Shown here: positions 5,382 through 58,000 of the stretch, piece after piece
Layout: each line of letters opens with the position of its first letter
How positions within the stretch are numbered: the stretch's first letter is position 1
From: Vitis vinifera
Taxonomy: Eukaryota > Streptophyta > Magnoliopsida > Vitales > Vitaceae
Direction of reading: 5' to 3'
Assembly (NCBI RefSeq): GCF_030704535.1
Contig: NC_081812.1
Location: forward strand, 16,279,001 to 16,343,000
DNA: 64,000 nt
Notes under the pieces: model-generated
The model's database searches: none
Told to the model about the DNA's origin: nothing
What the model saw: the letters and a program-made list of their open reading frames with translations, nothing else
Position numbers and translations under genes: made by a program

Positions 5382-8300
5382 CTAGTTCGGTCTTGGTGTG
5401 GACCACTCAACTTGCAGGATGAGACTGTCATAACCATATCCATTGAGCTTACTAATAGCTCTCTCAGCATCTTCCCTGTTGACAAAATTGACATACCCAA
5501 AACCTCTGCTCAAACCAGTCTTGTGGTCAATGGCAACATAAACACGGGTTAGTTGCCCAAAACGGCTAAATAGCTCACGCAAGTCAGCCTCATGAGTATC
5601 CTCTGAGAGATTGCTGACCCGGACAGCATTCTCTTCATTCCTGCGCCTCATATCTGTACCACTGCTTCTATCAGCACCAGCTCTCATGCTTGGTGGAACA
5701 TATGCACCCTTTGTTACAGAAGCCGCAGCAGTGGGATCTGATGCAGTAGGTTTGTCAATGAAGGCTTCAGGTTGTGGTGCAAGATCCTTATAAGGACACC
5801 TGGATGTCCAGTGATCACCCTTCTTCCCACAAGTCCTGCACACCATGAGTACAGCACCTCCTTTTGTAAGCTGTGCCAGGGAATCTCCTCCCACAGTATT
5901 GGTTTCCTCTGCTTTGCTACCTATTTTCAGTTCCATCATTGAAATATGTTCAGTAAAAATGTAAAATACTGGCAAAAAGAAAGGGAATATTGAGCTAGTA
6001 CTGAGGAGGAACTACGACACTTGATAAGATCAGAAATAGTCCTACAAATTCAGTAGGAAACATATATTTTCCATCAATACCGAACTTTCATTCTCTCAAT
6101 ACAAAAAAAGAAATAGAGTGAAAAGTTACAACAGATACACAGAATGACTCAACCCCAAGTGAGGAATTAAAATGACATAGTTTCTATTCATCCTAGAATA
6201 GAATTAATGATAAACATAAATCTTCTACATGGGGGCTATTCTATGTGGCACATTTTCTGAAAACTAGCAAATTAAGGATTTTGTTCAATCTTAGCTGAAA
6301 CTGTTAGGAGTAAATCCCTATTTACCAGAGCAATAATACACTAGAAACAAAAAAAAATAGACAGAACACACAAGATTAATAGCTATTCACTCTCACATAC
6401 ATCCACTTTGTTGCTGCAAATATTCACTATAATAAAAAATACATATATATATATATATAGGGCAATCTCACGCCTTACAATAATCATCTCTCCTCTGTTT
6501 TCCCACTCTAAAAAATTGACCGCCCTAATAATCCCTTATATAATGTGAAAATAAGAGCAGACTAACACGTGTAGAATACTTAAAAAACACCCTTTAGAAA
6601 TTTGCCTAGCAGAGAAATGTGTACAATATAAATAGGCTTCACACAACTCAACTAGTTAGCTAGTCAGGAAACCCAAAACTACCTATATATTAGTATATGG
6701 CCCAAAACAAATATAGTGGCTCTACATCAGCTAAATACAAAATTGAGTTGTTAACAAGAAATGCTGAATCTTATTTTCTATCTATTCAAAATCAATTTCT
6801 AATATGAAGGGAGAAGAACTTCAACAATGGAAATCTTGACTTTCATAACCAGCATTTCCGATCCACTCTCGACCATTTTGGCCATTCCAATTCCCACATG
6901 ACACCATGGGTGCATTAGTTATCGCACAATTAGTTTACCCTAAAGAACCACTAGGGCAAAGAGACAAAAAAGGCAGGAGATACACCCCATAAGTTTACCC
7001 AAAAGAACGACTAGGACAAAGAGACAAAAAAATAAATAAATTTTGTTCAGTGATAACACCAGATAAAACATAAATTATTTAGCGATGAACTCCATAAAGT
7101 TTTCAAAGCATTTTACTTCACCTCCCAACAATGCCATCCTAGACGATATGAAAGAGTCTGGTTTGATCACAAGTAGTTTTCCATGGATAGTCTGGTAAGG
7201 TTCCACCATGAAAGAATAGCAGAGGAAGCAAAAAAATACTTTTCTTTTTTGTGTGTGGAGATCGTAATCATGCAAAGATCATGAATAACAATTGCTTACA
7301 ATTAGTTCCTAAGTGGCTTGTTATGAGAAGTTTTAGGGTCAGGTTTGATAAAATATTTCTCCTAATGATGGGTAATAATGTGATATCTTGTTTCTATCAT
7401 CAGATTGTGCTTGTATGCATATATTTCTCCTTTGACTCTGTAAAGGGGCATGCGTTAAAGACTTGCAGTAGCATAGACAAGCAAAAAAGTATGCCAGAGT
7501 ATTACTGATTGAAGATTTCTAATGAAAAATCAGAAATGAGAGAGGAGGAGTTTGGATGAGTGGGATGATCAGTGAAATAACATGTCCCTAACTTACTGCA
7601 CCCTTCTATGAGAATGACCCCAGTTTGAAGTGTGCCAGTCTATGAACCCAGCTACAAAATGGGTTCTGCATATTGCATATGGGTAAGCTCCTAGTGAAGA
7701 ACTCAACAATACTCTCAGTATTAGACTAATAAAGAAGCAAGGAGTTCACAACATAATATGATAAGAACATGGAGCACTTGATAATATACTCACTCCTCAA
7801 ACTGATATGTTAATGCATGTTATGAAAATGTGCAAGTGTGTGCATAAAATGGATTATGAACTCACCACATAGAAACAAAGATACAATAGTTAAGCATCAC
7901 CTTAGACCCAAATTATAAAGGAATTGAATAAAATTTATCATTACCAAAATCAATAAATTATCGACATGAATCTCACTAGCACCCTGTTTTATCCAATTAA
8001 CTTGAATTATTTATATCCATAGGTTTAAGTCCTATAATTACAATAAAGTGCTCTTGGAGCCATCTCAAATAAAAATTCTAAATTTACCTATAAACTGTAA
8101 AAATTAAGTCACCAACAAATTCTATTTTCAAATTTTCCATGAGATGAATGTACATTAGCAGGTGGAATGCGTGAAGAACTACAGATCTAAGCTTCCGGGT
8201 TCATCATTGGAAAGCCTTTATCAAGGACAAAATAAAATACATTTCAGAAAAACGATTTACTCTCTGGTTTTTTGGAATCTCCCTCAGCCATCTCCACTCC

Positions 8301-31600: not shown

Positions 31601-33170
31601 CTGGGTTTTCATAAAATTGAAATTATCAATTGAAAATTGTAATGAAAAGTTCGAAACATGGTTACCATGTGGCATGTTGCCTGTTTTCTACTGTTTAAGT
31701 GGAAGTGCAATAATTTGCAGGTGTTCTGATCATTCCCCAGAAGATGTACCAAAAGCATTAGAGAGGACTTTGAGGAATTTGCAGCTTGACTATCTAGACT
31801 TGTACTTGGTATGTAGATCATGATTAAGCTGCTTGTTCAAGTTAATCTACAGATATTGGTGGAAAACTAGGAATGCATTTATTGTAACATATATCAAGAG
31901 TCGATTCTAGCTTTGAGCTGGCATTCATTTCTTCTTTTTCTTTTGTGGATATCTTAATTCCCGTCATTTCCATGCTACTAAATGGCGCTGTTGAAATTGT
32001 GAAGATCCACTGGCCAGTCAGCCTGAAGAGGGGGTTGATTGGTTTTAAGCCCGAATATCTTACTCAACCTGACATACCCAGTACATGGAGAGCTATGGAG
32101 ACGCTTTATGACTCTGGCAAGGCTCGAGCAATAGGCGTGAGCAACTTCTCCACAAAGAAGCTGGGGGATCTATTAAAGGTGGCCCGTGTTCCTCCTGCTG
32201 TCAATCAAGTGGAGTGCCACCCTTCATGGCAACAGCCACAGTTACATTCATTCTGTAAATCTAATGGAGTTCACCTTTCTGTGAGTATGCTGATAAAAAG
32301 TACTTCAATCTCCCTTTTGGGCTGAACATGTATTAAGCAAAACAGAGAGGTCCACTTTAAATATTTCCGTTTAAGGAAATGGACTTGTTACAAGATGCTT
32401 CTAAAAAGAAATGGATTAAAATCATCTCCATGTATCTGCAGACAGCCCACAGATGATTATTTAATGATGACCATGAGTTTTCTTGATTTCAGGCGTATGC
32501 ACCAATGGGTTCCCCAGGTGGCACATCTGGCAAGAGCAGGCAGCTCCTTAAGGATCCTGTTCTCAATATGATTGCAGAGAAATTGGGCAAGTCTCCTGCA
32601 CAAGTTGCTCTTCGGTGGGGGCTGCAGATGGGTCACAGCGTGCTACCAAAGAGCACAAACGAGGGTAGACTCAAGGAAAATTTTGATGTTTTTGACTGGT
32701 CTATACCTGAAGACCTCTTTGCCAAGTTCTCAGAAATTGAGCAGGCCAGTAGTCTCTCTTAACTACTTCAATCTCTTTCTGCTAAGTATAAATGTATGCA
32801 TGTGAAGCTTAAGATCCTAGTCATTAATCTTGTGGATTTGATAGTATTACACATATTTTTATTTTCAGCCATTACCCTTTTCTGATTGAACAGGATAAAC
32901 CATACCCTACTTGATTCTATAAAAAATGGAAATGTCTGCCGGCCCATAGATACAACGACCATTCAGACGTTAACATGTCCAATTTACTAACGAATATTAT
33001 GGGCAATTCTGAGTTGAGTTTAGAATACAAAGTGACTTCAATGTCTGTATTGATGATTTAGTTTATGGGTTTTGATTGCGCAGGTGAGGCTAGTTACAGG
33101 TAGTAATTTTGTGCACGAGACTTTTGGAGTATATAGAAGCCTTGAAGAACTGTGGGATGGTGAGATTTGA
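22650..33170 (+). CDS. NADPH-dependent aldo-keto reductase, AKR4C type (copy B)
   Basis: Reduces aldehydes and ketones with NADPH; AKR4C enzymes act on sugar-derived and lipid-peroxidation carbonyls. Exons 22650-22760, 29578-29628, 31490-31566, 31721-31808, 32005-32280, 32493-32744 and 33084-33170 join in frame to 313 aa, normal for the family. The tetrad is intact: Asp44 (RHIDCA), Tyr49 (LYENE), Lys78 (ITSKLW) and His111 (IHWP). The NADP-binding VLPKST motif is in exon 6. I chose the ATG at 22650 because it aligns with the starts of copies C and D; an in-frame ATG at 22608 would add 14 residues. Intron 6 uses a GC donor (CAG|GCCAGT), weaker than in C and D. Intron 1 is 6.8 kb and filled with repeat debris. 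Whether it is efficiently spliced is unknown. Confidence 0.85.
23300..23860 (-). mobile_element. Ty1/copia pol fossil (RNase H end), antisense in AKR B intron 1
   Basis: On the minus strand, short open pieces carry text typical of the copia RNase H C-terminus (for example [17 protein letters not shown] and SYISTTNQL). It is a fragment without recognisable LTRs at its sides. It is clearly broken, with several breaks, and looks old. It lies in the first intron of AKR B, opposite to the gene. Confidence 0.75.
25930..28510 (-). mobile_element. Ty1/copia fossil: LTR, primer-binding region and gag, antisense
   Basis: Read on the minus strand: an LTR-like block of about 1.24 kb (28510 to about 27266, with TG...CA ends) is followed by a degenerate initiator-Met-tRNA primer-binding site (about 27245-27262). 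Then comes a gag region down to about 26050 with text typical of SIRE/Maximus-like copia gag ([21 protein letters not shown]). No pol and no second LTR adjoin it, so it is a broken partial copy with several breaks. It cannot be dated by LTR comparison. It interrupts sequence that AKR C intron 1 still shares on both sides (to about 25920 and from about 29440). Confidence 0.7.
28511..29395 (+). mobile_element. Copia-type LTR fragment, sense orientation
   Basis: Directly abuts the antisense fossil. Its text is characteristic of SIRE-like copia LTRs: a TTGTAAACCTTTGAAAGG stretch, repeated GGTATCACTTGAG / GGTATCTCTTAAGG motifs, and an end with CATCACCCTATCCACTCCC. No internal domain follows. Either a solo LTR or the edge of a nested insertion; broken and old. 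Confidence 0.55.
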
Positions 33171-34066: not shown

Positions 34067-34339
34067 TTATTTATTAAATTTTAAATTCCTCAAATTATCA
34101 CCTGATATTTAAGAAAAGAAAAGAAAAATTGGTGATAAAAGGGAAAATATCATTTATGGTTTAGCATAAAAAATTTCTCATGCAATCTGAATATGCCCAA
34201 CATTATTGTTCAAGAAATGATATGATTTTGTCTAATTATATCAGATTTTATTTGTCCAGCTACTTCTAGATTTATATATGTATAGATTTATTTTATCCAT
34301 TAAAAATTATTTTAAAGAAATAATTGTGTAGATAAAAGT

Positions 34340-34877
34340 AGGGGTCTCCAAAAAGCCCGCGGCCCGCGACCCGCTTTAGGCCCGGCCCGGCCCGACGGGC
34401 TAAAGCCCAGCCCGAGCCCAGCCCGAGCCCGTTTATGGGCGGGCCGGGCCGTAGGCCCGCCCTTAGGCCCGGCCCGCAGGCCCGCCCTTAGGCCCGACCC
34501 GCAGGCCCGCCCTTAGGCCCGCCTTTAATTTTTTTTTTTAAAATAATATACTATATTTTTATATATATATAACTAATTCATTTAATAAGCACAAAAGAAA
34601 TGTAACTCAGTTGGTTAGAGCCTTGAAATTTATGCTTGAGGAGAGGGGTTCGAATCCCCCCTCTTCCTTTATTTAAAAGCCATTTTGGCTTATTTAAAAA
34701 AGCCCGTGGCCCGGCCCGTCCAGCCCGCTAGCCCGCGGGCTCATAGGCCGGGCCGCGGGCCTAGCATTTTAGCTCGGCCTGGCCCGGCCCGGCCCGTTGA
34801 CCAGTCAACGGGCCCATAGGCCCGGCCCGAGCTGGGCCGCGGGCCTCCTATTTACGGCCCGACCCGTTGGAGACCCT
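34340..34877. mobile_element. GC-rich inverted-repeat element with internal tRNA-like promoter
   Basis: Ends are AGGGGTCTCCAA and TTGGAGACCCT (inverted, one extra G on the left). The flanks carry a perfect 11 bp direct duplication TAGATAAAAGT (34329-34339 and 34878-34888). The outer parts are built from GGCCCG/CGGGCC words. The left arm has three copies of a 25 bp unit beginning AGGCCCGCCCTTAGGCCCG (about 34453-34523). The right arm has a perfect hairpin, GGCCCGTTGAC / GTCAACGGGCC with a CA loop (34791-34814). The centre (about 34527-34700) is AT-rich and contains the tRNA-like sequence. No coding potential. An 11 bp duplication fits a Mutator-like non-autonomous element best, but a Pol III unit inside is odd. 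I do not recognise a named family. Confidence 0.75.
34596..34668 (+). tRNA. tRNA-like sequence with intact Pol III boxes (probably not a working tRNA)
   Basis: TAACTCAGTTGG (34603-34614) matches the A box and D-arm. GGTTCGAATCC (34647-34657) is a perfect B box with a T-arm stem of at least four G:C pairs. The spacing is right for a tRNA. However, the putative acceptor strand AGAAATG does not pair with the 3' CTCTTCC, and no good anticodon stem forms. So this is a tRNA relic or SINE-type promoter rather than a functional tRNA. No strong T-run terminator follows. Confidence 0.6.
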
Positions 34878-35230
34878 TAGATAAAAGTGATAATGAGTTT
34901 AAGGTCCAAAAAAAAATGTAAAATCCAATTCAAAGATTAACAAATATTGATAATAGAGATAAAAGGATATGACTTTTTCGTCATATAAATTTTTTTTAAT
35001 GAATTTATTAAAAAAACCGTGGAAAGCTGCTAGGCAAGTGTTTTTTCATTTTTGTTTGTTGCAAAATAAATCGTATCCGTGACATCCGAAGCGGTTTAAA
35101 ACCGTCAAAGATTCCGAGCGAACAATGAATTTTTCAGCGAACGACAAGTGGACGGTGGATCTTTATGGCCACAAATGGTAAGGGCTAGACGGCAAAAGCA
35201 AGACGCCAGCATGATTCCCGTTTCCCACTT

Positions 35231-38300: not shown

Positions 38301-40031
38301 ATTGAAAATATTAACATTATAGCAACAATAGCTATCTGTTACTCTTTATCTTAAGATGCTGCTGTTGCAGTGCTGCTTGTACTATCTACTAATTCATTTT
38401 CCTTTTCTAGAGTAAACTGGTCTCTTGCAGTTCTTAGCTTCTACCATTTACAACTTAAATTATTTGCAGGTGTACTGATCATGGACCAGAAGATGTGCCA
38501 GAGGCACTAAACAGAACATTGCGAGACTTGCAGCTCGACTACATTGATTTATATCTTGTATGTGTTGCCTTAGTTATTTGTTAAAAGTAACTAGAAGAAT
38601 GTGTCATCCAATAAATATTGCAGGTCTTTGGACCCTATCAAAGTTCTGTGAAGTTTGCAGAAAGAAAAGGTCAAAACTGATGAAAGGCATTCCTCAGAAG
38701 ATGGACTCTTGTTAATGCCATATTTAGATCTTTGAGTGAAATTTGCAATATGGCCAAATCTTTGAGTCCCTTGATTCTGCAACCTTGTCTGTATCTTAGG
38801 AACTTAGAAATTGAACCGTACTTTGAATAATTGATAATCTGCATTTTAATTTAGATTGCATTATTCAGGAGATTATTTGATTGTAACTAAATGCGGCTGA
38901 TTCTTGTAGATCCATTGGCCGGTCCGTATGAAAAAGGGTTCTGTTGGCTTCAAACCTGAAAACCTCACCCAACCAGATATACCAAGCACATGGAGAGCAA
39001 TGGAAGCACTCTGTGATTCTGGCAAGGCTCGAGCTATTGGTGTAAGCAATTTCTCCACAAAGAAACTGGGGGACCTGTTGGAGATTGCACGTGTTCCTCC
39101 AGCTGTCGACCAAGTGGAGTGTCATCCTTCATGGGACCAGAGAAAACTGCGTGCCTTTTGCAAATCCAGGGGGGTTCACCTAAGTGTAAGTAGTCAATCC
39201 TTAATTTACTTTGAAATTTGGGTTAGCTCCTTATATTGTTGAAGAGCATATCTTAATTTACTCATTATTTTGATTCAGCTATGCGCGCGCATCTAGAACT
39301 ATAATAATTTTTTTCTTTAATTTTGATTTGCATGTATCTTTCAGGGGTATTCACCATTGGGTTCTCCAGGTACAACATGGCTCAAAAGTGACGTCCTTAA
39401 GCATCCAGTTCTGAAAACGGTTGCAGAGAAATTGGGCAAATCTCCTGCACAGGTTGCTCTTCGCTGGGGCCTGCAAATGGGTCAGAGCGTGCTTCCCAAG
39501 AGTACACATGAATCAAGGATCAAGGAGAATTTTGATGTGTTTGGGTGGTCTATACCTGAAGACCTGTTTGCTAAGTTTTCTGACATTGAGCAGGCAAGTA
39601 GTTCTTTTCCTCATTGCCTCTGTCGATTCCCCCTATGATCATGGCTCCTAGTAATTGTTTAATAGTGGGCCGCTATATTGCCATTGTAACTGCCAGTAGC
39701 ATTATGCACCTAGCACCAATAAATTAGAGTTAAAACAGCAGAAAGATTGCGAATGTCAGTTATACTCTATTATTTCCTGTTGCATATGAAGCTTTTTACT
39801 GATTCCTTTAGCGACTGGATGATTGGATGGTGTATGTGATGATATACAAGTGTAGGATCATTTGAGAGGCACAGGATCTTGTGCCAGATACTCTTCTCCT
39901 GACCTTTTCTAATAATAAAAATATTTTGGTTTTTAACTGTGCAGGCAAGACTTCTCAGAGGAAGCTCATTTGCCCATGAGACCTTGGGCCACTACAAGAC
40001 TGTTGAGGAACTTTGGGATGGTGAGCTCTGA
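35347..40031 (+). CDS. NADPH-dependent aldo-keto reductase, AKR4C type (copy C)
   Basis: Same enzyme family as copy B. Exons 35347-35466, 37078-37128, 38198-38274, 38470-38557, 38910-39185, 39345-39593 and 39945-40031 join in frame to 315 aa. It begins [20 protein letters not shown]. Tetrad: Asp47, Tyr52, Lys81, His114. ECHPSW and VLPKST motifs are intact. The C-terminus is LEELWDGE-like (VEELWDGEL). Intron 6 has a GC donor in near-ideal context (CAG|GCAAGT). Exons 3-7 and their introns are strikingly similar to copies A and D, which marks a recent duplication. An in-frame upstream ATG at 35320 would add nine residues, but MSDD is shared with copy D. Cytosolic by absence of a clear transit peptide. 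Substrate is not deducible. Confidence 0.92.
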
Positions 40032-48267: not shown

Positions 48268-50995
48268 ATGGATGAAGAGAGTGAATTGTATTTTGAGTTG
48301 AATACCGGAGCTAAGATGCCGTCCATCGGTCTCGGAACCTGGAAAGCCCCTCCCGGCGTGGTCGGTGAAGCTGTCATCGCTGCCGTTAAGGTTCTCTTCC
48401 TTAAATTGAATTCTGGAGAAAGAAAAATGCTGTCATCTATTCTCTGTTGTTAAATTTGTGTGATATCTGGATTACAATTGCAGATCATATTTAAATAATT
48501 AAGTAGGACTGAAATTATGAACAAATGATACAAAAAGAATTCTGAAATTGCAAGTTTGTTTCGTCTGGTAAGTTAGGGATTCTAACTTCAAAACTCCACC
48601 ACTTTTTTGGATGTCGGTGTCGAGGAAAACTGGGAAAAGGAAAAACAAAGAGAGAATAGATTTCTGTTTGGTTGTAAATTGTAATAGAAAGTAAGAAATA
48701 CAATAATAATACATGAAAATTGGGAAGAAATTTTTACGTTCTTGAGCTCTTCATTTTCTATTTAAAAAATTTATTTTCCTTCATTTATTGATTTATTGTT
48801 TTTTCTTCCAATTTCCTGGCAAATTTTTAAAATTAAACATAGTATTAAGAAACTCGAGTAATGTTTGATAAGTTCTCAAGAAATAATTTTAAAAATTGGC
48901 TTTCAAAAAACACTTTTTCAAAATAGTTCTCAATTATTTTCTCGAACAAAATTTTGTTGCACTTGAGTAAAATATAAAATTTCCAAAATATATTCGCCTT
49001 ATATTCAATTGTTTTCAAAACATTTTACAAAAATACTTAAAACCCCTCAAATCTACTCTTAAGATACCTTTCAGAACAAAATTTGCAAATGCTGATATTA
49101 GTAAAATCTTTATAGAAAAAAAAAAAAAAACTGTTTTCTATCCTAATGAACAAAATTGTTGTCAAAAACAATTTCCTAGCATGCCTTCCCTCATAAAAAT
49201 CATGTCTCTTCTTTCTGTTACAGTTATAAAAACCTGATCTTAAGGTATGGTTGTTCTGGTTCCTAAATGGATGCAGGCTGGTTACAGACATATCGACTGT
49301 GCTCGAGTATATGATAATGAAAAAGAGGTAAACTTCTTTTGAGTTTTTGTTAGTTTCTTTTTAGTCAAGATCTTTTAATTGATTCTTGTGGCGAAGGGGA
49401 AGATTAATTACAATGCACAAGGGTCATTTGGTGAACAACCACTTTAACACAGTTTATGCAGTTTTGTTCTATTTCCAGGAGTAAATGCATCTTCATTGTG
49501 TTCATCATGCTCAATATTTTATACATATAGGGTAACTTTTTGTGATATATTGATCTGGTGCAGATAGGGGCAGCACTGAAGGAAGTATTTTCCAATGGAG
49601 TGGTGAAGCGCAATGAAATTTGGATCACATCTAAGCTATGGTAAGTTCCTAATAGTTCTTTCTCTTGTCTTCTGTTTGATTTAGAATTTCTTATCTCTGT
49701 TTGTTCAATTAGTTTTCATATTTATTCTCTAAGGTTGAATATTGTTTATCATTTTGGTTCTAGTGAGATTCTGGCTCCCAACCCCAGACATATCATTTTG
49801 TTCTCTGTGGAAACTTTTGAACTTATATTATATCATTTACAGGTGCAGTGACCATGCACCAGAAGATGTCTCCAGGGCATTGAGCAAGAGTTTAGAAGAC
49901 CTGCAACTTGACTATATTGACCTATATCTTGTATGTCTCTTTGAAGTGCTACCACCATTGAGTTTATTTTTAGTTACAAACTTTATCTTATCTCAGTCAA
50001 AACCTAGGCAGTACACCCAGTTTAAAAGTCCTTATTAGTCTCAACTCTTGGGCGTATCTTGCCTAGGCAAGTGCCATCTGGATTATGTAATAGTTCATAT
50101 TGTTGTCGGTCTGTCTAATCATGTACTATGCTGGAAATGCAGAGATGATATATTTGAAATGGTTTTGGAATATGACTGTGTGTTACAGATACACTGGCCA
50201 TTTCGGACACAGCCTGGCTCTCGTGGGTGGGACCCTGATGTCATGGCTCCATTATGCCTCTCAGAAACATGGACTGCAATGGAGGGCTTGTATGCATCAG
50301 GCCAGGCACGTGCAATTGGGGTAAGCAACTTCTCAACAAAGAAGCTGCAGGACCTGCTCATATATTCAAAAGTCCCACCTGCTGTCGTTCAGGTGGAATG
50401 CCACCCCGTTTGGCAGCAAACTGCACTTCACAACTTGTGCAAATCAACCGGTGTTCACCTCTCGGTATTCACTGTACAATCTTCCAGTTTGATGATTGGC
50501 ATAATTTGTGGTATCAAATGAAACTTGAATGAAGCATATGGATGAACATTCTCTTTGCAGGCGTACTCTCCTCTTGGATCCCCAGGGTCTTGGGTAAAAG
50601 GGGAAATCTTGAAGGAACCAAAATTGCTGGAGGTTGCTGAGAAGCTGAACAAGTCACCTGCACAAGTAGCTCTCAGATGGGGTATTCAGAGCGGTCACAG
50701 TGTCCTTCCCAAGAGTGTACATGAGTCTAGGATTAAGGAGAACTTCAGTTTATTTGACTGGTCCATCCCTCCAGAACTCTTCTCAAAATTTTCTGCTATC
50801 CACCAGGTAAATGTGCCTCAGGACATACATTTGCACCTAGATACATGCATGTCCTAGACAGTGAATTGCCTACTTAGGATTCTAAAATGCTGATGATATC
50901 TGATGCAGCAAAGGCTTCTTCGTGGGGATTCTGCAGTCCATGAAAGCTGTAGCCCTTACAAAAGCCTGGAAGAACTGTGGGATGGAGAAATATGA
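48268..50995 (+). CDS. NADPH-dependent aldo-keto reductase, AKR4C type (copy E, divergent)
   Basis: Exons 48268-48390, 49277-49327, 49564-49640, 49843-49930, 50189-50464, 50561-50806 and 50909-50995 join in frame to 315 aa. The intron positions and phases are the same as in B-D, so it descends from the same ancestor, but the introns share no recognisable text. Tetrad: Asp48, Tyr53 (RVYDNE), Lys82, His115. The exon 5 loop differs ([18 protein letters not shown] instead of the [12 protein letters not shown] type), which predicts different substrates. Intron 6 has an ordinary GT donor, unlike A-D. The ATG at 48268 fits the family start; an in-frame ATG at 48232 would add 12 residues. It is the last array member and converges with P5CS. 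Confidence 0.92.
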
Positions 50996-55000: not shown

Positions 55001-58000
55001 TTTCAACAGTAAACCGTTCCCACTCCGAATTGCTAATGAAGCTATCTATTGAATCATTAAAAAAATTAATGGTCAATAAATCAAGAAAATACTACAGAGT
55101 AGATTAGCTGACTGACAACAGCACAAAACCACTGTCTATTCAATGACTAGGAGAAAAAGGATGGGAGAGCCAAAGATTGGCTCAGAAGTATGAATTATCT
55201 TCCATAGTCACTGCTAATAGAAAAATCCTTATGCATCCAAGCAGCATTGCTTTACTGCTTAATGATATCAGATGCCACCACTGAGCATAACAGAACCAAA
55301 TCAACTTGTTCAGTGGGACCTTAAATAGTCTTTCTTTCTTTCTTGGTAAACCTTAAACATACTAATCAATAAAAATATGCTGGGATTGATGAGAAGAGAA
55401 ATTTCTTGTCTACCTGAACTAGCGCATCAGGTCGTGCCTCAAAAACAACCAGGAGGACACCCATAGGACAAGATGTCTTCTCTAAGATAAGTCCATCTGC
55501 AAGCTGGATGCAAGAGCAGTCATCAGATGTCGAGACAACTAATAACCAAAGCATATGGACAAAATCATATTAAGCCTAGTGCATATTTCATGAGTCCAAA
55601 GAGTAATCATGTTTGATGATTGAATCTATTGTTGTTTTGTAGAATTTGAAAACTAGACTTCTAAACAAATAATACAACTTTTATAGGAAGCAGAAGTCAG
55701 ATACCATCAGTATGTTACAGATACCTAAAAGGGAGACGTGTAACATTGATGTCTCCACGTTAAATAACCATCCAAACCTCATTTCATAGTTTGGTTATTG
55801 ATGATCAAGATTACATAACTCTGCAGATCGTTTTCTTACCTCCATTCTACTTAAAACATGACCAATGGGTTCTTTCATGTCTGCTAGCATCCGAATTGAT
55901 TTTGCTAGACCAGAGATCTGCATAACACAATGAATTTTATGAAGAACATGGACATGCTTCTATTAAACATTGAAATAAGACAGGCAAGCTTTGAGAAACA
56001 AACAGAAGAGCACCAACTAAGACAGTTATAACAACAGGATGAAGTCTTCTTTTTATTAAGGAAAAAAAAAAGAAAAAAAGAAAAACTCATTAGCAACCAA
56101 AAACCAAAGAATAGAAGAAGAAACAAAGTAGGTATGAATATGCAAGCTCTTAGTCATGATAGTACTCCACTAATCAATAGTTCCCCACCTTCCCAGGCTT
56201 TAAGGTCAAACGAGATAGTAATGACTTGTCATACCCAGCCTCCTGTGCAGCAGCAACATCAACTTCATTCTCAACTTTAATCAAGCTTTCATTTGCTTCT
56301 AGGGCATCGGCTATGTCCAACAAAATTTTCCTCCTATCTTTTGAAGGCAGGGCCTGAAAAAGCATCCATATGGATTATTCAAAATTCCAGTGTAACCACT
56401 TTCCAAATAAACTATAAATTAAAGAATACAGAAAGCTAAGAAGTTGTAGTGAGGAAATATTGGATGCCAAAGAAAGTTATGTTACTTACAAGAACCTCTA
56501 GTCGTGCAATTATAAAGAATGTAGTTACCTGAAGCCGCCTGGAACATTCTCGTGCAGCCACTGCCATTTCACGGGCACCAATTTCTTTCACTAGGGTCCA
56601 TGAATGTGCATCTTTATGGAAAAGTGTACCGACACGCTGCCCTTGAAGTACTTTTATAATGTTGTCAGTGGCGTACCCACTTCAAGAAAGAAAGAAATTT
56701 AGAATTCAAACATGGAACAACCATCCTATTGAGAAAACCAGCATGCCTCTCACAATACTTGGTGATATATTGGCTCCCAAAGACAATAATAAATCAAGTC
56801 TTGGGATATATAATACATATTAAGCATTAAAAAAAAACGGAATATCTAAGAATGAAATGGAGGGAGGATTAGATTTTTGGTGAATTGACTTCTGACGGAG
56901 CAGGTTAAATTCAATAATTGAAACTGGGTCAAATGATGGATCAGGTTATGTTTTCAATCACAGTTAGATATTATTGAGACACTAAGAGAACTTGCCATTA
57001 ACTACAGCCACATGTTCAAACACAAACGCCAGTGTTCTCAACCAGACTGGATGTTTGAACCAGCTAGATGATCAATCAAGCACCTTTCTAGTTTCCCAAA
57101 AACAATCCTTATAAAAGAACCCTCCCCTCATTTGGGTTTATCCGAGTTTCTTTCATTCATATTTGTACTCAATTACCATGTTTAACCATCACACATTTAA
57201 CCACATGGTTAAACCTGGCCATTCAGACTGAACAGCTAACACATAAACCAATCCCTTCCACTAGTTGGCCAATATCCAAGGTCTGCAAACATTGGATGCT
57301 GTGGAAATAGAAAGCATCCCTGACTCCAAATTCGGATTGTTCTGTATGATGAAACAAGAATTGGATACAACTGTACCTTGTAATCACTGTAGGGGTGCCA
57401 GCATCGGCTGCCTGGTTAGCAGCTTTTACTTTAGCAGTCATACCCCCTCTTCCAACCTTAGACTTGTCTCCAAATGTAATTTCTCCTTCATGTTTTTCCT
57501 TAACATATGTATGGATTAATTCCGCATGTGGCTTATTTGGAGGGGCATTGTACAGACCCTCTACATCACTCAACAAGACAAGAAGGTCAGCTTTTAGTTC
57601 CAGAGCCAGTAGAGTTGCCAGACTGTCATTATCACAAAATATACCAGAAGAATCCTGAAAACAGTTTTCATAATCAGACAACATATACATCTGGCAAATG
57701 ACATAAGTAAGCAACTGAAGTGCAAAAATAATAAAATAAATAAATAAATAATAGAAAAAGGGAGCATAGAAGTAACAGACACATGAATTTAAGATGAGTT
57801 AAAACAGGGGAAGCATGAACTAAGGGTTTTAACAAAATTAGTGCTAGGCAGTGGCTTCGTAATGACAAGCTGCTACCAAAAAAAAACCTAGCGCTTATAT
57901 TTTCCATGTCCTCATGGTAAATCTGCAATTACCAATCAAAAAGTAGTGTTGTATGTTCGATGCACATAATGAGAAATCTTATAAAAGCACCATATGTTTG

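Follow-up and report, generated by a model that had tools for sequence, protein, structure and literature searches.

A grapevine hAT deletion derivative with a parental tRNA-like module that probably serves as a Pol III promoter in its source elements

The locus and its GC-rich element

The window, the whole stretch of 64,000 nucleotides of Vitis vinifera DNA analysed here, contains a tandem cluster of aldo/keto reductase genes, represented by exons at 31888-32322, 38910-39239 and 50048-50518 (PF00248), along with exons for a protein kinase domain (PF00069; 2994-4094), an eIF3 subunit G/RRM protein (5385-5975) and an amino-acid kinase, perhaps P5CS (57226-57714). At 34339-34879 lies an element of 541 bp, which we read as a MITE-like, non-autonomous hAT element; it is delimited by its ends and target-site duplication (TSD) and assigned to the plus strand from the orientation of a tRNA-like piece at its centre. 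The element ends 468 bp upstream of the likely first ATG (35347) of a reductase gene, whose first exon was placed by eye and has no Pfam match.

Terminal inverted repeats (TIRs) TAGGGGTCTCCAA on the left (34339-34351) and TTGGAGACCCTTA on the right (34867-34879), both given on the plus strand and set by comparison of ends, bound the element, and the 8-bp TSD GATAAAAG flanks it at 34331-34338 and 34880-34887 in a register taken from 26 copies. The original prediction had limited the element to 34340-34877; its existence is confirmed with the limits corrected as above, and its interpretation found partial support. The inverted ends it described are present over 13 nt and are 92% complementary. 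The flanking repeat of 11 bp, TAGATAAAAGT, is also perfect and occurs twice in the 621 bases searched, but the true TSD is 8 bp: the longer repeat of this copy consists of the TSD with TA and T at its borders, these extra bases being part of the element on one side and of the flanking DNA on the other.

GC content is ~28% in the centre of the element and ~77% and ~70% in its left (34361-34521) and right (34708-34861) subterminal arms. As predicted, the arms are rich in GGCCCG, with 19 of the window's 20 GGCCCG words falling inside the element; the GGCCCG/CGGGCC words of the left arm are putative transposase-binding repeats. The 25-bp repeat described before is present, with starts at 34441, 34466 and 34491, but is not a general feature of the family, and among the copies listed both arm length and arm repeats vary from one copy to another. 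The predicted hairpin of an 11-bp stem and 2-base loop is found at 34791-34814 as the palindrome GGCCCGTTGACCAGTCAACGGGCC. The TTGACCAGTCAA palindrome is shared by the window copy and three of the five full-length copies described below (L045, L050 and L051) and was not found in L047 and L048 with up to three changes allowed; at the palindrome's centre, TTGACCAGTCAA resembles what we take to be a double W-box (WRKY site). In the diverged copy L092 the TTGACCAGTCAA palindrome was seen twice by eye.

The right flank (34880-34980) is part of a dispersed repeat of ~100 bp, of which six pieces, 78-82% alike, were found at five further places. A locus lacking the insert had been expected to show a single copy of the flanking repeat, and in three of five fetched flank paralogues (L086-L088) a single TAGATAAAA does run straight into the right flank, which is 81-83% identical. 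These three have hardly any match to the left flank and thus argue weakly for an empty site.

A hAT family with full-length members

The genome searched comprises 495.6 Mb in 21 contigs, with the window on contig C8. With the element as query, at least 58 matching pieces were recovered genome-wide among the best 40 of 398 candidates scored, and exact matches to the 16-base left end TARGGGTCTCCAAAAA number 204, whereas the reversed control has 0. Both ends are present at 26 of 30 element loci, the fetched stretch not holding both in L017, L018, L025 and L029, and the element is therefore not single-copy, in line with the prediction that many copies would share its ends. Left and right flanks of these 26 copies agree in 24-26 of them at exactly eight positions, a T follows the left duplication in 25 (C in L027) and an A precedes the right duplication in 24. 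The end bases and this line-up of flanks place the ends at 5'-TARGGGTCTCCAA and TTGGAGACCCTTA-3' and fix the duplication at 8 bp; 24 of the 26 copies have it without a mismatch, L021 has one mismatch in it and L019 lacks it. Hence the expectation that each copy would have its own duplication of 9-11 bp was right as to the duplication (25/26) and wrong as to its length. Duplicated sequences are biased, with T at position 2 in 14 of 26 and A at position 7 in 18 of 26, which fits the nTnnnnAn target preference of hAT elements.

The first 20 of the 100 TARGGGTCTCCAAAAA places listed were also taken at 6 kb each, regardless of what lay at their centre. At fifteen of them a right end and an 8-bp TSD (up to one mismatch) complete the element, giving lengths of 268 to 3246 bp, and of these fifteen elements 12 have both a match to the upstream-plus-A-box pattern (up to four changes) and a B box (up to two), two have the former with no B box (L049 and L052), and one, the 268-bp L053, has neither. 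Retention of at least the upstream-plus-A-box part by 14 of 15 elements picked by their left end bears out the claim that other copies keep the tRNA-like part. Among the five unpaired places, the upstream-plus-A-box match is present in two and absent from three.

Five elements of 3038-3246 bp (L045, L047, L048, L050 and L051) have the common ends and an 8-bp TSD, with one mismatch in L047, and contain long frames on the strand opposite the tRNA-like piece. The frame of L051 (P0001), the one copy scanned against Pfam, matches PF05699 (3.8e-28), PF14372 (6.4e-12) and, below threshold, DUF659. A search with the transposase protein gave identities of 77-100% in the best 70 of 582 candidates; 19 of these 70 have no internal stop, 15 of the 19 with frames of 672-677 aa, which suggests that the family has probably been active recently. 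A full-length relative with a transposase and the same ends, as sought by the original prediction, thus exists, and its transposase is of the hAT type. Because the window element can be aligned with both ends of each of the five long copies and is missing the transposase gene, it is almost certainly an internally deleted, non-autonomous hAT derivative. The broader description of a cut-and-paste, non-autonomous, multi-copy TIR element with a tRNA-like A/B-box piece therefore holds.

The TIRs of hAT elements are short and start with TA/CA-R-G type sequences. The family has the 8-bp TSD, short TIRs (TARGGGTCTCCAA / TTGGAGACCCTTA) and, in L051, the hAT dimerisation and RNase-H domains of this superfamily. 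Assignment to Mutator-like elements (MULEs), which the original prediction had preferred on the strength of the 11-bp repeat, is contradicted by the 8-bp TSDs of 24 of 26 copies and by the hAT transposase of the full-length relatives: the register in the 26 copies is 8 bp and not 9-11 bp, three of the window's 11 bp are element ends, and the Pfam matches of L051 are two hAT domains and the sub-threshold DUF659 rather than a MULE transposase. SINEs, for their part, have TSDs of variable length, an A-rich or simple-repeat 3' tail and no TIRs; the copies described here have TIRs and a TSD of fixed length. Capture of a SINE by a DNA transposon, as suggested for the window copy, is likewise contradicted, since the full-length hAT parent already carries the tRNA-like piece, upstream of its transposase gene, and the window copy inherited it from there. 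In the available text on HaSE2 of Helicoverpa, tRNA-derived SINEs similarly have a tRNA-like head with A and B boxes, and HaSE2 mixes SINE and DNA-transposon sequence; it differs in being a SINE with a mariner-derived tail, whereas the present family combines hAT ends with TSDs fixed at 8 bp and a partner transposase of the cut-and-paste type (PMC3272025).

In the five full-length copies, every GGCCCG/CGGGCC lies no further than ~165 bp from the left end or ~250 bp from the right. Maize Ac/Ds, too, has a TSD of 8 bp. According to the portion of the Ac work available, subterminal AAACGG hexamers cluster within 200 bp of the Ac ends and bind transposase, so that Ac/Ds resembles the present family as a hAT system with internally deleted non-autonomous members and clustered terminal hexamers, the hexamer being GGCCCG here and AAACGG in Ac (PMC3260210). 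By this likeness in placement, we infer that the GGCCCG words are candidate binding repeats for the hAT transposase. DAYSLEEPER/Kubox1 was considered as evidence that hAT proteins read GGGCC-type words and was dropped because the motif letters are absent from the part of the review at hand.

Among grapevine hAT families, Hatvine-9 is described in the accessible text of the survey as 2.9 kb long, with 76 copies retaining >90% of the transposase gene, 113 deleted copies, and a TIR and a TSD of 8 bp each (PMC2528002). The Hatvine families in general (Benjak et al. 2008) share 8-bp TSDs, short TIRs and many deleted copies with the window family, the comparison with Hatvine-9 and the others being by description and not by sequence (PMC2528002). 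The word 'tRNA' is absent from the main text of that survey (PMC2528002) and from the available text of a paper on Brassica hAT MITEs (PMC7385995). A PIF-derived protein acting on 7SL genes has been reported, in a source whose available part has nothing on transposons with an internal Pol III promoter (PMC11893794). Among the papers listed from the open-licence literature, judged by titles and the openings of abstracts, we recognised none that reports a Pol III promoter in a hAT element.

The tRNA-like module

The AT-rich centre of the element carries, on the plus strand, a TATA-like stretch TATATATATAACTAA (34562-34576) and the sequence CACAAAAG (34590-34597), whose CAA triplet is at the position expected for the transcription start of a plant tRNA gene; both are conserved between the groups of copies compared below. 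They are followed by an A box, TAACTCAGTTGG (34603-34614), a B box, GGTTCGAATCC (34647-34657), 44 bp from the A box, and a T4 run (34683-34686) 25 nt past the B box, a candidate Pol III terminator; T4 is a short terminator. The prediction of an A box and a perfect B box in an AT-rich centre stands for the B box, but the A box of the window copy is one base off the family form TRGCTCAGTTGG. In L050 the transposase frame has its first ATG ~0.47 kb from the module, which lies upstream of it (introns not considered) and points the other way. By eye, the C-run just past the B box is much longer in L047 and L048 than in the other full-length copies.

Plant tDNAs, in the available text of a survey of their flanks, have AT-rich sequence upstream; 36-45% of them have CAA within 10 nt, 22-32% a TATA motif and 67-72% a T-run downstream (PMC11700998). 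The module presents the same order of AT-rich upstream sequence, CAA near the start, A box, B box at tRNA spacing and T-run, yet its TATA motif is conserved in the family while being found in only the above minority of plant tDNAs (PMC11700998), and it differs from tRNA genes in encoding no recognisable tRNA and in the variability of the stretch between its boxes. An intact tRNA gene was rejected: ARAGORN with the bacterial-code setting found 0 tRNA genes in the window, and the Rfam matches listed include no tRNA, either for the window at the gathering score or for L050 with E values of up to 5. Weak Rfam matches over the window's piece were to tmRNA, covering the B box, and to a tymovirus tRNA-like structure, one weak overlapping match of the same clan, possibly tRNA, having been omitted. 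A permissive ARAGORN run on L045 gave four weak matches, one overlapping the B box on the opposite strand, which were not used as evidence. The element and host tRNA genes nevertheless have in common a 19-base A-arm, TAGCTCAGTTGGTTAGAGC; followed by G, this arm is found at 25 places, and the three checked are two tRNA-Ile(AAT) genes and one tRNA-Asn(GTT) gene, with 45 bp from A to B box by count. Predicted RNA folds of the module have z scores of -0.55, -2.80 and -3.85 and are not consistently stable. Since the folds vary from group to group and no more than two of the three clearly beat shuffled sequences, RNA structure was set aside as the conserved trait and the DNA boxes are favoured.

The occurrence of the module was followed in 59 copies, made up of the 30 element loci, the five full-length copies, 12 diverged leaders (L059-L070; 77-81% protein identity to L051) and 12 close leaders (L071-L082; 92-99% protein identity, 11 of them free of internal stops). 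The TATA/CACAAAAG anchor, whose TATA-to-CAA spacing was part of the search pattern, is present in 56 (missing in L060, L067 and L082), and 53 of these 56 have a B box with up to two changes (missing in L062, L065 and L068). Spacing from A to B box in the 53 is 44 bp in 45 copies, 45 bp in four, 46 bp and 39 bp in one each and 54 bp in two, so that 50 of 53 keep the tRNA distance of 44-46 bp, and TTTT follows the B box in 51. At the level of exact letters, the element copies have a perfect A box TRGCTCAGTTGG in 19 of 26 cases and two perfect boxes in 16 of 26. The 12 close leaders have a perfect A box in eight, a perfect B box in ten and both in seven, and all 12 have a B box at up to two changes, L082 having lost its A box. 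Perfect boxes are scarcer in the 12 diverged leaders (A box in three, B box in one, both in none), and a further diverged copy, L092, has both.

In the genome as a whole, the upstream-plus-A-box pattern CAYAAAAGNNNNNTRGYTCARTTGG is found at 226 places with up to one mismatch, against 0 for the reversed pattern. Of the 100 places listed, 60 are on contigs C1-C9, and 42 of these are preceded, at 134-2917 bp, by an exact left end of like orientation; two pairs of opposite orientation were also seen. Of the other 18, three lie in known loci (L027 and L030, with both ends, and L062, with the right end), three adjoin transposase matches, and five fall in four fetched stretches (L091-L094), all with hAT traces. 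L094 is an element of 369 bp with decayed ends and a perfect 8-bp TSD, L092 and L093 have an intact right end, the latter with no B box, and L091 (C1:8678200-8679400) holds two diverged cassettes, inverted, ~0.58 kb apart and with GC-rich arms between them, which resembles a fold-back form. These four stretches around cassettes with no exact left end nearby hold decayed, partial or inverted-pair elements, a further ground on which a SINE or composite origin was rejected. A second inverted cassette pair was noticed on C13 near 166.5 kb.

Conservation was compared between consensuses of three groups: G1, the MITEs (23 of the 30 element loci), G2 (eight of the 12 close leaders) and G3 (eight of the 12 diverged leaders, 77-81% identical to L051). 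The rows dropped from the consensuses, seven element loci, four close leaders and four diverged leaders (L060, L065, L067 and L068), are variants or copies in which the module is broken or absent. Between G1 and G3, the TATA-like stretch, CACAAAAG, A box and B box are identical at 42 of 42 positions, as against 34 of 80 between the boxes; the corresponding values are 41/42 and 36/80 for G2-G3 and 41/42 and 54/80 for G1-G2, a contrast that is optimistic because the TATA and CACAAAAG boxes were selected once the alignment had been seen. The A and B boxes alone, which were defined beforehand, compare with all other columns as 23/23 against 53/99 for G1-G3 (p 5.6e-6), 22/23 against 55/99 for G2-G3 (p 1.9e-4) and 22/23 against 73/99 for G1-G2 (p only 0.024), positions not being fully independent in any of these p values. 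This conservation is a property of the group consensuses, and individual copies, that of the window included, often have damaged boxes. Such decay is expected if only source elements are under selection, and it also means that the claim of a maintained promoter rests on reconstructed group states.

A candidate Pol III promoter within a DNA transposon

DNA transposons are normally thought to need only their ends and a Pol II transposase gene, Pol III promoters being a mark of SINEs, and we know of no Pol III promoter in Ac. The A and B boxes described above stand at tRNA spacing, as in a type 2 Pol III promoter, and transcription by Pol III and occupancy by TFIIIC are predicted. Judged by these sequence features, the parental tRNA-like module kept by the window element, a hAT deletion derivative, probably acts as a working tRNA-type Pol III promoter in source elements, and such a promoter is likely an inherited and maintained part of this hAT family. 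The window copy itself, with one change in its A box, is probably a weakened passenger.

We propose a model whereby full-length copies would make transposase, which would bind the clustered GGCCCG words and the TIRs and then cut and paste the MITE. In the source elements, the series of TATA-like stretch, CACAAAAG, A box, B box and T-run would work as a Pol III promoter. It would most likely benefit the transposon in cis, a TFIIIC/Pol III complex keeping the leader open and boundary-like beside the transposase promoter; the RNA itself may also have a function.

Other explanations of the boxes were weighed. They might be a TFIIIC-binding or chromatin-boundary site, or part of the Pol II promoter of the transposase gene, and yield no Pol III RNA; the divergent position ~0.47 kb from the transposase ATG in L050 suits this account, as does a terminator that is a short T-run in most copies. 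TFIIIC binding alone does not need a TATA-like stretch or a CAA, yet both are also conserved between consensuses at the spacing of a tRNA gene, and we regard this explanation as unlikely. The tRNA-like piece might also be a passive relic of a host tRNA gene or SINE head that entered an ancestral hAT, conserved by chance or through youth. The identity of its A-arm over 19 bases to tRNA-Ile and tRNA-Asn genes of the host (three of 25 places checked) is in keeping with such an origin, and so are the decayed boxes, both being perfect in only 16 of 26 element copies and in none of the 12 diverged leaders. A relic would not be expected to keep its A and B boxes at 23 of 23 positions between G1 and G3 against 53 of 99 for the rest of the stretch, together with the flanking CACAAAAG and TATA-like stretch, nor a B box at up to two changes in all 12 close leaders, exact in ten, and we give this account rather little credence. 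A Mutator-like element, or a DNA transposon that captured a SINE and founded a new composite family, would explain the perfect 11-bp flanking repeat of the window copy and the presence of A and B boxes in a TIR element but is highly improbable given 8-bp duplications in 24 of 26 copies, the hAT transposase of full-length relatives, the tRNA-like piece already present in the full-length parent and hAT traces in all four fetched stretches, which cover five of the 18 cassette places with no exact left end nearby.

Returning to the maintained Pol III promoter, a bolder form of it may be entertained, though only tentatively. The hAT family would then possess a second gene-like unit, divergent from the transposase gene and yielding a predicted Pol III RNA of ~95-100 nt, with boxes selected in the source elements and MITEs spreading hundreds of Pol III/TFIIIC sites, intact or decayed. 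Such a unit may aid the transposon directly, through opening of the leader, pausing of replication forks near the element, or the RNA itself.

If true, retention of a complete tRNA-type promoter by diverged subfamilies of one hAT family breaks the division between DNA transposons and SINEs. The MITEs of such a family could then scatter TFIIIC/Pol III sites near genes, as the window copy may illustrate, lying as it does 468 bp upstream of the likely start, placed by eye, of a reductase gene.
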